Source: a halophilic archaeon SHRA6
Lineage (GTDB): Archaea > Halobacteriota > Halobacteria > Halobacteriales > Haloferacaceae
DNA: 64,000 nt
Assembly (NCBI GenBank): GCA_005239175.1
Contig: ML241294.1
Span: forward strand, 445,275-509,274
Reading direction: 5' to 3'
Shown: piece after piece, positions 23,855 to 55,163 of the stretch
Position numbering within the stretch: position 1 is the first letter of the stretch
Layout of the letters: each line of letters begins with the position of its first letter
Translations under genes and position numbers: made by a program
Notes under the pieces: generated by a model
Databases searched by the model: none
The model's input: the letters and a program-made list of their open reading frames with translations, nothing else
Told to the model about the DNA's origin: nothing

Positions 23855-24262
23855 ATGGTCGAGAGTCACCCCCTCGAGCGGGTTGAACCGGTCCTGTTGA
23901 TCGCGATCGGCGGCTTTGCCGGCGCGAACGCGCGGTTTGGGATCGACACGATCATCGCAGGCGATCTGCTTGCGACGTTTCTCGCAAATGTGCTCGGGAG
24001 CTTCGCTCTCGGAGTACTGGTGTACGACTCGCTCTCGCGGGGCGTGGTTGGATCGAACGCACGATTGGTGTTCGGGACAGGCTTTCTGTCGTCGTTCACC
24101 ACCTACAGCACCTTCGTTCTCGGAACGGTAACCCATCCAGAGATGGCTCTCGTCTACGTTGTCGGGAGCTACGGCTGTGGATTCGGCGCCGTCTTCGTGG
24201 CGCGAGAAACCGTTAGTTGGATAGATCAACGTGCGTCCAAAGGGCACATCGGAGGGAACTGA
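23855..24262 (+). CDS. crcB1: Fluoride exporter CrcB/Fluc subunit 1
   Basis: 135 aa with four membrane helices. Fluc motifs GGFAGANARFG, ANVLGSFALG (pore Asn) and TGFLSSFTTYSTF (the Phe/Thr-Tyr-Ser line of the fluoride path) are all present. Fluc channels are dual-topology dimers that let fluoride leave the cytoplasm. It overlaps the next crcB by 1 bp (TGATG), so the two subunits probably form a heterodimer. No fluoride riboswitch structure was recognised upstream. Confidence 0.92.
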   Translation: MVESHPLERVEPVLLIAIGGFAGANARFGIDTIIAGDLLATFLANVLGSFALGVLVYDSLSRGVVGSNARLVFGTGFLSSFTTYSTFVLGTVTHPEMALVYVVGSYGCGFGAVFVARETVSWIDQRASKGHIGGN

Positions 24263-24606
24263 TGGAGCCAGCGTTTCTCGTCGGTACCGGCGGGGCGATT
24301 GGGGCGGTCGCTCGCTACGCTGTCGGCCAACGCATTGGGACCGCGGAGTTTCCGCTGGCAACGCTCGTCGTAAACGTCCTCGGGAGTTTCGTGCTCGGAG
24401 CGATCACCGCGGCGGGAGCCGGAAGCGACGTGGTCCTGTTTGTCGGCACCGGCGCGTGCGGCTCGTTCACCACGTATTCGTCGTTCAGCGTCCAGACGGT
24501 GCTCCTGTTCGAAGAGGGCAACCGCGGCGCAGCTATCGCAAACGCGATCGGCAATCTCACGCTCAGCGCAGGGGCGATCGGAGTGGCGTGGCTGCTCGTT
24601 GGCTGA
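24262..24606 (+). CDS. crcB2: Fluoride exporter CrcB/Fluc subunit 2
   Basis: 114 aa from the ATG at 24262; shorter and lacking the N-terminal extension of its partner. Motifs GGAIGAVARYAVG, VNVLGSFVLGA and TGACGSFTTYSSF match Fluc. Adjacent paired paralogs of unequal length are the usual heterodimeric arrangement with opposite membrane orientation. The stop is 20 bp from the left end of the inverted-repeat cassette A. Confidence 0.92.
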   Translation: MEPAFLVGTGGAIGAVARYAVGQRIGTAEFPLATLVVNVLGSFVLGAITAAGAGSDVVLFVGTGACGSFTTYSSFSVQTVLLFEEGNRGAAIANAIGNLTLSAGAIGVAWLLVG

Positions 24607-24666
24607 GTAGTGTGTACGGTGTGTAGGCTCTGTTGAAATCCTCAATCAGTGATATGTTTTAACGGT

Positions 24667-24697
24667 CGTGCTGAATATAGAGGTTAGATTCAGCACG
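24667..24697. repeat. Subterminal hairpin of cassette A
   Basis: CGTGCTGAAT and ATTCAGCACG form a perfect 10-bp stem with an 11-nt loop, about 41 bp inside the left terminal repeat. A related stem occurs in the right arm of cassette B at 55095-55120. Confidence 0.8.
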
Positions 24698-24831
24698 ATC
24701 GCAGTGTTCGTTTCACGTTGAAAAAGTTGGACACACGCTCACTACGCCTGCGAATTTTTGCAGAATTAAATTACGCTGGCCGAGTTGTATAACCCCCCGT
24801 TGTTACAATGCTCGCATACGATTTGTGAACC

Positions 24832-25878
24832 ATGGATATCCAGTTTGCTGTCTCACGAGCAAAACCCGCTATTCGCATCTTTAGTGAAAAGAACGTAACA
24901 TTTCTCGCCGGCAGTATTGCATACAGCGCGTTCATCTCACTTGTTCCACTAGTCATGTTCTTCCTCCTTGGGGTCTCTGTGTTCGGTGCGCCCGAACTAC
25001 AGCAGCAGATAATCGAGGTGGCGACCGACAGCGTCTCTCCATCGGTCGGCGGCGTTATGGAGGTGATGATCGAAGAGCAACGTGACGCCGGCCCAAGCTC
25101 GACGATCAGTGCCACTCTCATCGGGGTTTTCACTCTTGTCTGGGGGGCGATTAAGGTATTCCGTGGGCTCGATACAGCCTTCTCTGAGATCTATGAGACA
25201 ACCGATCAGGGGTCGTTCCTCGGGCAGATCAAAAAGAGCCTTGTAGTACTTTTCACCCTCACGCTGGGCGTCATCGCGATGGTCGGCACGACTATCTTCG
25301 TCGCATTCTTCTCGTCAGTCCCCTTCATTGGGCTCTTGGCCTCTCTGCTACTGATCGTCGGTCTCTGTGGTGTGTTTTTCCCAATGTACTACCTGTTTCC
25401 AAACATCGACGTGTCGCCACGGGAAGTGCTTTCAGGGACGATCGTCGGGGCCGTCGGTTGGGCGATCCTACAAGTGCTTTTTCAGGTGTACGTCTCTCTG
25501 AGCGGCAGCGGGGGCGGGAGTCTCATCGCAAGTATCCTCCTGTTGGTCACCTGGCTGTACTTCAGCGCTGTCGTATTGTTGCTCGGGGCTGCGGTCAACG
25601 CTGTTGGCCATGCCGACGCAACCGCCGACGAGCGGGAGGAGTCTTCCGTATTGGATACTGAGATGACCCGCGGCGAGGCAGCGACGTATCTCCGGCGGCT
25701 TCGTGAGGACCTCACCGGCCGATTCGAAGGAATGCGGCCAACAAGTAAGGGAACCGTCGTCGAACGCAACCCTCCGAGAGGCGCCATCTCCATCACAGAA
25801 TGGGCCCGAGAAACCGAGGACGGAAAAACTCACGAGGTCCAGTTGGAGTGGGACGCAGACAGCAACAGCGAGGACTGA
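24832..25878 (+). CDS. YihY/BrkB-family membrane protein
   Basis: 348 aa. Residues about 1-270 contain six hydrophobic segments with the YihY signature FLAGSIAYSAFISLVPLVMF near the N-terminus and LLVTWLYFSAVVLLLGAAVN near the last helix. The C-terminal about 80 residues are hydrophilic. Family function is unsettled; it was once called ribonuclease BN in error, and some members are putative permeases. It is the sole gene between the inverted repeats of cassette A, and its reading frame is intact. Confidence 0.85.
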   Translation: MDIQFAVSRAKPAIRIFSEKNVTFLAGSIAYSAFISLVPLVMFFLLGVSVFGAPELQQQIIEVATDSVSPSVGGVMEVMIEEQRDAGPSSTISATLIGVFTLVWGAIKVFRGLDTAFSEIYETTDQGSFLGQIKKSLVVLFTLTLGVIAMVGTTIFVAFFSSVPFIGLLASLLLIVGLCGVFFPMYYLFPNIDVSPREVLSGTIVGAVGWAILQVLFQVYVSLSGSGGGSLIASILLLVTWLYFSAVVLLLGAAVNAVGHADATADEREESSVLDTEMTRGEAATYLRRLREDLTGRFEGMRPTSKGTVVERNPPRGAISITEWARETEDGKTHEVQLEWDADSNSED

Positions 25879-26122
25879 GCCACAGCGGAGGGTCACCCTA
25901 TTGAGGCAAGGAATTGGTGGAAGTACATGCTTGCTTGCATGTTCAATTCCGGGCGCAATTATTCATTTATCTCGTTAGATATCAACTCCCCAACGACCGA
26001 TTCGCGCCCTATATTTAGCACGCCATTCGTATCAACTGCTGAGGATTTCAACAGAGCCGGCGTGTACGGGAGCGCAGCTGCCGCAACAGCCCACGAGACG
26101 GCTGGGGAACGCCCAGTCGTGG
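25879..26122. other. Right arm of cassette A and flank
   Basis: No gene. Holds the right subterminal word (ATATTTAGCACG near 26011) and the terminal repeat ending at 26058, then 64 bp of host sequence before the convergent DUF5778 gene. Confidence 0.6.
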
Positions 26123-26515
26123 CTACGGAACGGGCGTCACGTCGTAGCCCATGTCTTCGATGTCCGCAACGATCGCGTCCTGGTCGGCGCTGGCCTCGTA
26201 GTAGAACACGAGTTTGAATACACCGTCACGGATCAGCTGTTGGCACTCCCAGACAAACTCCTCGTCCTCCAGCGTGCGGCCGTGGAACTGGTTAGAGGCG
26301 AAATCAGGGTCATCATTGCCGGCGTAGATGTACGTCTCGCCCTTTCCGGCGTGTTCGGCGATCACGTCGTTCAAATCGACGGTGAGTTCGTGCATTTCGA
26401 GATCCTCTTGACTCGTGAGTTCGGTGTGGACAATCACGCCAAGGAGATCAATCTCGCCAGGTTCGAGAAGCGCCTTGGTCCGGTTGTACAGGTCTTCGTC
26501 GAGAACGTTGGTCAT
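26123..26515 (-). CDS. DUF5778 family protein
   Basis: 130 aa, starting MTNVLDEDLYNRTKALLEPG. A soluble acidic domain with LLGVIVHTELTSQEDLEMHELTV-type strand order and VFKLVFYYEASADQDAI near the C-terminus, matching the haloarchaeal DUF5778 family. No catalytic residues are obvious. It is monocistronic, lying just outside cassette A and upstream of a 29-bp repeat array. Confidence 0.78.
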   Translation of the reverse strand: MTNVLDEDLYNRTKALLEPGEIDLLGVIVHTELTSQEDLEMHELTVDLNDVIAEHAGKGETYIYAGNDDPDFASNQFHGRTLEDEEFVWECQQLIRDGVFKLVFYYEASADQDAIVADIEDMGYDVTPVP

Positions 26516-26556
26516 TGACCGAAAATTCGACTGGGAGGACTAAACGCCTGATGATT

Positions 26557-26701
26557 TGATCGCGTCAGCAGAGACGATTATGAGTTGATCGCGCCAACAG
26601 AAACGATCGAGAATTAATCGCGCCAACAGAAACGATCGAGAATTAATCGTGTCAGCAGAAGCTATCGAGAATTAATCGTACCAACAGAGACACTCACAGG
26701 G
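26557..26701. repeat. Five tandem 29-bp units
   Basis: Units start at 26557, 26586, 26615, 26644 and 26673. Units 2 and 3 are nearly identical (core ATCGCGCCAACAGAAACGAT); units 1, 4 and 5 are diverged. There are no spacers, so this is not a CRISPR. The array lies in the divergent region between the DUF5778 gene and the membrane protein gene at 26803. Confidence 0.9.
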
Positions 26702-26773
26702 CGATCGCGTCGGTCGCGTCGATCGCGCCGATCACCTTCGTAAAATATCAATCGTGCTAATTGGGGACGTAGG

Positions 26774-53877: not shown

Positions 53878-54040
53878 GGCTCTGTTGAAATCCTCTGAGA
53901 CTGACAGGTACCGATTGCTGAATACAGAGGTTCTATGCAGCACGGGTTTCTCTCTGGCGGGGTGGTGGCGAGGATGATCTGAACGGTAGTGGAGGATGCG
54001 TCCAAATCCTCGTAAAACCGTATCAACGGCCCACGAGACG

Positions 54041-54046
54041 TATATA
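54041..54046 (+). promoter_or_regulatory. TATA element inside cassette B
   Basis: TATATA centred about 25 bp before the ATG at 54069; the cassette therefore seems to carry its own promoter for the cargo gene. Confidence 0.55.
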
Positions 54047-54068
54047 CTCACAAAGAGTAGCTCGTAGT

Positions 54069-54893
54069 ATGCAAAACGGTGTCTGGATAACGGCAAGTGA
54101 CGAGATAGACACGGCGCGGATGGTCGAACTCGGAGTTCTCGCCGAGGGGTCGGGCTGGGACGGGGTGTTCGTCAGCGACTCGCTTCCTTTTACGGAGCAC
54201 CCTGACCCGTGGGTTGTACTGGCGGGCATTGCCGCACAGACTGAAACGATCCGCTTGGGCACGTGGGTCGTTCCGTTGCCCAGGCGTCAACCCTGGCAGG
54301 TCGCACAGGAGGTTGCAACCCTCGACCGGCTCTCGGGAGGCCGCGTCATTCTCGGCGCCGGAATCGGGAACAGCGACGATTACGACGACTACGGAATGCC
54401 CTACGAGCCCCGCGAACGCGGCGAGCGACTCGACGAGACGCTCGACATCGTTATCGGCCTATGGGCCGGAGAACCGTTCAGCTACGATGGGAAGCACTTC
54501 CAACTTGACGATGCGGTGGTTCAGCCAACTCCTGTCCAAGAACCACACGTGCCCATCTTGTTGGGGTGCTGGTGGCCGAACAAGAAACCCATCCACCGCG
54601 GAGCCCGCTGGGACGGCATCATGCCGTTCTTCCCATCGCTCATCAATGCCGAAGCGGGACCCCATGGCGAGGAGGAGACGGGGTCCCCCGAGGAGGAGGT
54701 GCGGGACGCCTTGGCGTTCTACCGCGATGTCGCCGACGAGCCGGGTGATGTCGTGTTGCCGACAATCCCCAGCGAGGACCCCACGGCCTTCGCCGAGACC
54801 GCAGCGGAATTGGGGGTGACCTGGCAGCTGGCGACCGATCTCGGGGGGGACCTAAACGCCGTTACAGAGCGCATCCGCGAGGGACCGCCGTAA
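54069..54893 (+). CDS. LLM-class flavin/F420-dependent oxidoreductase
   Basis: 274 aa luciferase-like TIM barrel. Typical segments are AEGSGWDGVFVSDSLPF, GIAAQTETIRLGTWVVPLP, VATLDRLSGGRVILGAGIGN, and PYEPRERGERLDETLDIV; the late part (VPILLGCWWPNKKPIHRGARW) is also family-like. It would reduce or oxidise a substrate with F420 or FMN; the specific reaction is unknown. It has no CGATCG and lies alone between the inverted repeats of cassette B, so it was probably acquired with them. Confidence 0.87.
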   Translation: MQNGVWITASDEIDTARMVELGVLAEGSGWDGVFVSDSLPFTEHPDPWVVLAGIAAQTETIRLGTWVVPLPRRQPWQVAQEVATLDRLSGGRVILGAGIGNSDDYDDYGMPYEPRERGERLDETLDIVIGLWAGEPFSYDGKHFQLDDAVVQPTPVQEPHVPILLGCWWPNKKPIHRGARWDGIMPFFPSLINAEAGPHGEEETGSPEEEVRDALAFYRDVADEPGDVVLPTIPSEDPTAFAETAAELGVTWQLATDLGGDLNAVTERIREGPP

Positions 54894-55094
54894 GGACTGA
54901 GGTTCCCTGAGGTTCGCCTTCGATACAGCGGCTGTGAAAGCTACATCGAGGTCATTCGAGACTACTGTCCGGGTTCCGTACTTTCTGACTTACTACCTCA
55001 TTAGCCTCTGTAAAACGCTCCTAGAGCCGATCATTGAGAATCGTGTCTGTCTATATCTACCAGTTCAGTTTGTCTCCGTCAGACGGAGCCTCCG

Positions 55095-55120
55095 TGCTGA
55101 ATACGCATCTATATTCAGCA
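55095..55120. repeat. Subterminal hairpin of cassette B
   Basis: TGCTGAATA and TATTCAGCA form a perfect 9-bp stem, about 43 bp inside the right terminal repeat, mirroring the hairpin of the left arm of cassette A. Confidence 0.8.
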
Positions 55121-55163
55121 TAGCCTCCCTAAACTATCAGTCACTGAGGATTTCAACAGAGCC

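Follow-up and report, generated by a model that had tools for sequence, protein, structure and literature searches.

A yihY cassette between crcB and a DUF5778 gene

The window analysed here is a stretch of 64,000 nucleotides from the halophilic archaeon SHRA6 (contig ML241294.1, positions 445,275 to 509,274), whose genome assembly spans 3.36 Mb in five contigs and is 99.26% complete. Within the window, the second of two crcB genes (24217-24606, forward strand; PF02537) and a DUF5778 gene (26123-26515, reverse strand) are separated by a 1433-bp element, which we call cassette A. As the initial annotation had described it, the element (24626-26058) carries an exact 19-bp inverted repeat at its two ends, with copies at 24626-24644 on the forward and 26040-26058 on the reverse strand, and is flanked by two 8-mers that differ at a single base: GGTGTGTA at 24618-24625, one copy of a putative target duplication, and GGCGTGTA at 26059-26066 (7/8 identical). 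The sole evident gene inside, and the only open reading frame with a family match, encodes a 348-aa membrane protein of the YihY/BrkB family (24832-25878, forward strand; PF03631, E 2e-38; above the cut-off of NCBIfam yihY_not_rbn). Adjoining the DUF5778 gene is a run of tandem copies of a 29-bp unit of the GATCGCGCCAACAGAAACGATCGA type (26553-26726).

Two half-sites, parts of a junction site characterised below, were assigned to cassette A. The end-side (R) half-site (25995-26043, forward strand) corresponds to positions 1-47 of our 87-position site model R1 (17.9 bits, E 0.0007). The start-side half-site (24635-24695, forward strand), in which GGTTAGATTCAGCA comes after a variant core GTGCTGAATATAGAG (24668-24682), was delimited by eye and from an alignment of cassette A with its counterpart in a genome of the same genus, G298; model R1 reported no match for it. 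The same repeat ends recur, again as annotated, in cassette B (53878-55163, forward strand), which carries a gene for a luciferase-like oxidoreductase (54069-54893) between flanks AGATAGAC and CGATAGAC (7/8 match), and whose start-side (L) half-site (53886-53936, forward strand) aligns with R1 positions 36-86 (14.2 bits, E 0.01). Both of these matches to R1, at the right end of A and the left end of B, are weak.

Allowing up to three mismatches, the 18-mer end occurs four times in the window, all in cassettes A and B, against 0.06 occurrences expected from shuffled sequence, and 51 times in the genome as a whole, where a reversed-pattern control yielded none. We listed 19 inverted pairs in this genome: six have exact 8-bp flank copies, three match at 7/8 positions (A, B and a cassette with a GNAT gene) and ten do neither, two of these ten being parts of one composite with an exact flank copy. 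That 5.4-kb composite (G000:C2:110664-116073, or L041:2165-7574) has two ends, exact 8-bp flanks GGAATTGA and several open reading frames, including a Usp gene. An inspection of what other inverted pairs enclose had been proposed as a check on cassette A, and the genes turn out to be unrelated: GNAT; Usp; DUF7387 with HicA; the luciferase-like oxidoreductase; HNH with a metallophosphatase; an aldo-keto reductase with a methyltransferase; an alpha/beta hydrolase; and a MarR-like gene with a PemK/MazF-like toxin. Among the elements of this genome with at most one flank mismatch, none matched a transposase.

The genome holds two further features of this kind. A second end subtype, with CTGAAACAGCCGG inside, is present at G000:C1:707684, C2:187323 and C3:9971 and resembles the ends of the T1 insertion sequences described below rather than junction half-sites. 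A separate region (L046, G000:C2:721000-737000) contains three integrase-like open reading frames of 371-436 aa, identified by eye, amid cassette ends and IS6-type copies.

Empty sites in relatives and IS5-family elements with the same ends

Relatives of SHRA6 provide the empty site that the initial annotation had suggested looking for. In G298, crcB and the DUF5778 gene are direct neighbours with no cassette between them, while yihY (98% identical) is carried on a different contig, enclosed by ends of its own and flanked by CTGATAAT and CTCATAAT. Across 30 DUF5778 loci, crcB was found beside the gene in three, G298 and two more relatives, at distances of 60, 6 and 35 bp; in the other 27 it falls outside the examined stretch. 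Our own genome is among these 27 because cassette A separates the two genes. For cassette B, just parts of the right flank are present in G298.

Viewed from the gene rather than from the site, yihY is detected at E<=1e-60 in 31 of 170 genomes of the family, and crcB or DUF5778 lies near it in our own locus only, among 30 yihY loci. Whole or half junction sites stand beside yihY in four loci (L122, L123, L124 and L130). For L123, DNA identity to copies without repeats runs from about 65 bp upstream of the yihY start to about 26 bp past its stop, and to judge from these alignments the gene therefore seems to move together with the region upstream of it. Between cassette A and its G298 counterpart, identity breaks outside the site cores and not at the centre of the site.

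The ends themselves are widespread: at most one mismatch from the 18-mer, they occur in 205 of 293 genomes of the order (control 0). Over 209 inverted pairs the number of flank mismatches is bimodal, with 0 in 68 pairs, 1 in 20, 2 in 13, 3 in 3 and 4-8 in 105, a tally in which overlapping stretches are counted twice. Sixty-nine distinct elements have at most one flank mismatch, 41 of them without a transposase; in 26 a transposase aligns over its full length, and in two a 31-aa fragment does.

The transposases in question are proteins of 273-285 aa, carried by elements of other haloarchaea with the same end, and belong to the IS5 family: two representatives, T1 and T2, score 214.9 and 216.7 bits against the IS5 model NCBIfam NF033579 (cut-off 140). 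With T1 as query, matches at E<=1e-60 came from 63 of 146 genomes, more distant groups included. Full insertion sequences with the same ends, the search for which had been named as a check, do exist: 17 of the best 30 T1 loci have both ends with flank copies at no more than two mismatches, most of them exact. T2 is 66-68% identical to T1; the duplications beside its elements (L194-L196) are 8 bp long and exact, and at the far end these elements carry the R-type end of cassettes A and B. This IS5 group may well already be named in ISfinder. A close partner transposase was not found in SHRA6, where the best match reaches 42% identity over 226 aa and none passes E<=1e-60.

Several other candidates were set aside. 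IS6 was rejected as partner, the IS6-type copies at C2:732-735 kb not being bounded by the cassette end, as was IS1595 (0 PF12762 matches in this genome). A group of transposases 41-46% identical (L181-L188), present in many identical copies, has different ends, of the GGCTGTGTTGAATCGC type.

Two side observations concern the wider distribution and make-up of these elements. In many T1-type elements (L091-L120) the transposase, whose start is some 50 bp from one end, is accompanied by extra open reading frames. In two Methanoregula contigs (L253, L257) the same 18-mer forms short inverted pairs, 258 and 352 bp long, with 8-bp flank copies; one flank is poly-A, and the pairs suggest related MITEs in methanogens.

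Junction sites, cassette arrays and a tyrosine recombinase

A 15-mer from inside one end type forms one-strand clusters in other genomes, mostly without the outer repeat. The members of these clusters are sites about 70 nt long with two cores in inverted orientation at their ends. Among 74 regular-expression hits, nearly all have 70 nt between outer core edges and lack the outer repeat. Whole sites that link cassettes measure about 70-90 bp. Aligning 65 sites reveals a conserved block of about 93 bp, beyond which information is near zero. The search pattern fixed only the cores; the loop, left free, is also conserved. Model R1, built on sequence only from 59 sites, matches at E<=1e-5 in at least 159 of 293 genomes and at least 59 of 87 genera, with no more than 15 candidates scored in each genome. 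Cassette ends match half of it: positions 36-86 at start-side ends, positions 1-44 at end-side ends. We found no conserved fold for the site (RNAalifold, 0 consensus pairs over 59 sites), and folds of single sequences were not counted as evidence. The core motif of integron attC sites, GTTRRRY, was not seen by eye at conserved positions of the site consensus.

Searching with nhmmer recovered 173 whole sites in 49 loci. In 40 of these loci, chosen by score whatever the strand, adjacent sites less than 4 kb apart have the same orientation in 67 cases and opposite orientations in four (binomial P 4e-16), all four in L414, where both strands score for sites; in the nine loci picked from same-strand clusters the counts are 48 and 0. 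One array, in G149, is a 22.6-kb block of about 20 sites between two repeat ends.

Of 115 cassettes, 108 have an open reading frame of at least 60 aa, and the median interior is 742 bp. The longest frame follows the orientation of the sites in 52 cassettes and opposes it in 56. Cassette genes span regulators, methyltransferases, transporters, stress proteins and toxin-antitoxin genes; the most frequent Pfam families in a set of 98 cassette proteins are DUF7344 (5), HTH_10 (5) and methyltransferases (4), and PADLOC matched six families, with mad2 in four proteins and subtilase in two.

The same cassette can be found in different arrays, and also both in an array and alone. Copies in G149 and G092 are 94% identical over the whole interior, and copies of a cassette common to G149 and G084 are 95% identical; an array cassette of G126 has its counterpart in Haloferax sp. 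Q22 as a standalone element between repeats, with an exact duplication and 85% identity over the whole interior. In alignments of such common cassettes, identity falls off at the site boundaries. Thirty-eight cassettes have another copy, several of these being the same place counted twice.

Five array loci contain a gene for a 234-aa tyrosine recombinase (PF00589, E 6e-15) on the site strand, although the site strand is ambiguous in L414. Residues R65, K124, R184, W207 and Y216, which we take to be catalytic, are invariant in nine homologues. Homologues of at least 66% identity occur in 24 of 293 genomes, and sites in 22 of these 24 compared with 137 of the other 269 (Fisher P 5e-5); seven of the ten genomes with 15 or more sites have the recombinase (P 1e-6). 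Shared ancestry of the genomes inflates both associations. At the level of loci, a site lies within 1.5 kb of the recombinase gene in 9 of 24 cases, compared with 0 of 30 DUF5778 loci, 0 of 6 loci of a distant recombinase and 2 of 30 T1 loci. In several loci the gene sits between an upstream end-side half-site and a start-side half-site just past its stop codon; under a strict pattern for the core, the core lies 30-35 bp past the stop in 7 of 18 scored loci compared with 2.4% of random windows. The recombinase gene also heads an array on replicons that we identify, from matching lengths and coordinates, as plasmids of Haloprofundus halobius (NZ_CP083667.1) and Haloarcula marina (NZ_CP100405.1). 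It was found neither in the SHRA6 genome nor in the array-rich G149, and an AlphaFold model of the protein was discarded (pLDDT 46.5).

How the cassettes might arise and what they resemble

That cassette A is a passenger cassette moved in trans, as originally proposed, is well supported by the ends it shares with insertion sequences, the empty site, the displaced yihY and the unrelated genes in other pairs; the transposition event itself is inferred. We consider it probable that A, beyond this, belongs with its single gene to a haloarchaeal cassette system that has outer IS5-type repeats, inner half-sites and, as the likeliest shuffling agent, a site-specific recombinase. The outer repeats of 18-19 bp are the ends of an IS5-family transposon group, and a transposase supplied in trans would have inserted A between crcB and the DUF5778 gene, creating the 8-bp duplication. 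Just inside the repeats lie the two halves of the conserved junction site. Where two cassettes adjoin, a whole site is made up of the end-side half of the first and the start-side half of the second. The resulting layout, [repeat-half]-cassette-site-cassette-...-[half-repeat], is the structure seen in arrays. That array structure is well supported, and by virtue of it whole cassettes also seem to be exchanged as units from array to array; the mechanism is inferred. The linked 234-aa tyrosine recombinase is our candidate agent, on grounds of linkage and with no recombination shown. Having found neither a close transposase nor the core recombinase in this genome, we have nothing to show that cassette A can move now. 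Further points that weigh against this reading are the flanks of A and B, identical at just 7/8 positions, the lack of the recombinase in G149, the missing conserved fold of the site, and the break in identity between A and its G298 counterpart outside the site cores.

The arrays could instead stem from transposition and homologous recombination. Imagine that the IS5-type transposase were the sole mover: A would be a plain mobile insertion cassette, arrays and sites would be by-products of adjacent insertion and of later homologous recombination between ends, and the tyrosine recombinase would be one more passenger. We regard this as a minority possibility that nonetheless has to be taken seriously, given that elements with both repeats and exact duplications exist, that L368 shows one end inserted 27 bp inside another, and that the recombinase is missing from G149. 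Nor does half-site ownership discriminate, the figures being near equal: R-part 0.70 versus L-part 0.72 in 16 pairs with a common downstream cassette, and 0.81 versus 0.79 in four with a common upstream cassette, many pairs being doubtful. However, nearly all of the 74 sites keep 70 nt between outer core edges without an outer repeat, their conservation stops abruptly at the edges and extends to the loop, which the search did not constrain, 67 of 71 neighbouring sites share an orientation, and in several loci half-sites stand at a fixed spacing on both sides of the recombinase.

It is also conceivable, though we think it improbable, that A is not a purpose-built cassette but a decayed, passenger-bearing insertion sequence that has lost its own transposase. 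Several transposase-bearing elements do have extra open reading frames, and L194-L196 combine the T2 transposase with the same R-type end. Against this, there is no transposase match inside A, and sites or half-sites bound yihY cassettes in other species. The weaker alternative raised at the outset, two unrelated solo ends flanking a resident gene by chance, can point to flanks that match at 7/8 rather than 8/8 positions and to little else; it is refuted by the relatives, three of which have crcB and DUF5778 only 6-60 bp apart and one of which, the same-genus G298, has yihY elsewhere inside its own ends, while crcB or DUF5778 accompanies yihY in one of 30 yihY loci, our own. We give it virtually no credence.

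Seen merely as a passenger cassette that is mobilised in trans, A is a fresh case of an already known idea. From the portion of the source available to us (PMC2266710), MIC231 of Bacillus cereus, related to IS231 of the IS4 family, has a passenger gene between IS ends and no transposase, as the haloarchaeal cassettes do, and full insertion sequences related to mobile insertion cassettes can carry extra genes. Unlike MIC231, the insertion sequence here is archaeal and of the IS5 family, and the cassettes have inner half-sites and tandem arrays. Cassette A shares its ends with autonomous elements (IS5-family, 18-bp ends, 8-bp duplications), and it contains a passenger, yihY, without a transposase. 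For a target duplication of the partner's length the evidence is mixed: the flank copies are of 8 bp but match at 7/8 positions in A and B, and are exact in six of the 19 pairs of this genome and in one composite. For a partner transposase in the same genome, which a mobile insertion cassette would also be expected to have, no close candidate was found (best match 42% over 226 aa).

MITEs are short and non-coding, and at 1433 bp with a 348-aa gene cassette A is neither. The accessible part of PMC3119063 describes HqIRS elements of Haloquadratum walsbyi and ISH2 MITEs as free of transposase and moved in trans, some of them appearing to be mobile even where the genome has no functional transposase; those MITEs measure about 520 bp or less and only one has a likely protein-coding open reading frame, whereas the elements described here span 0.3-5 kb and carry diverse genes. 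The array recombinase, for its part, is a small tyrosine recombinase like Int1 of the haloviruses phiCh1 and phiH1, the phiCh1 protein being about 44% identical to it. As far as the available text of PMC6210493 goes, phiH1 int1 (675 bp) inverts a tail-fibre segment that lies between inverted repeats; the array recombinase, unlike an Int1 acting on one invertible segment, sits between cassette half-sites.

In the open-access literature we found neither the exact end sequence in print nor a printed description of the array system or of a common haloarchaeal cassette-shuffling platform, and as far as searched the array system behind cassette A is undescribed. Haloarchaea exchange genes extensively. 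If our reading is correct, they have a cassette-shuffling platform at the level of the order Halobacteriales, with junction sites in at least 159 of the 293 sampled genomes.

The closest parallel is with integrons and CALINs, including the integrons of archaea (PMC9668308, seen in part, where the text at hand contains no word beginning Halobacter, haloarchae or Euryarchaeota). Both have tandem cassettes with a repeated site in one orientation (here 67 of the 71 neighbouring pairs, from 40 loci), a tyrosine recombinase beside half-sites and many arrays without a recombinase nearby. Unlike in integrons, no attC consensus was apparent by eye and the haloarchaeal site shows no conserved fold; the array recombinase falls far below the integron integrase model integrase_gron (20.1 bits, cut-off 265), and genes point both ways (52 and 56). 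The array system resembles an integron, yet its site and recombinase fail integron membership. Whether it is the haloarchaeal counterpart of the integron we consider evenly balanced: such a counterpart would combine one-gene cassettes with their own promoters, a non-attC site, an Int1-related recombinase and export through IS5 ends, singly or as arrays, the yihY cassette being the one-cassette export form. If true, this would be a second integron-like system, of independent evolutionary origin.
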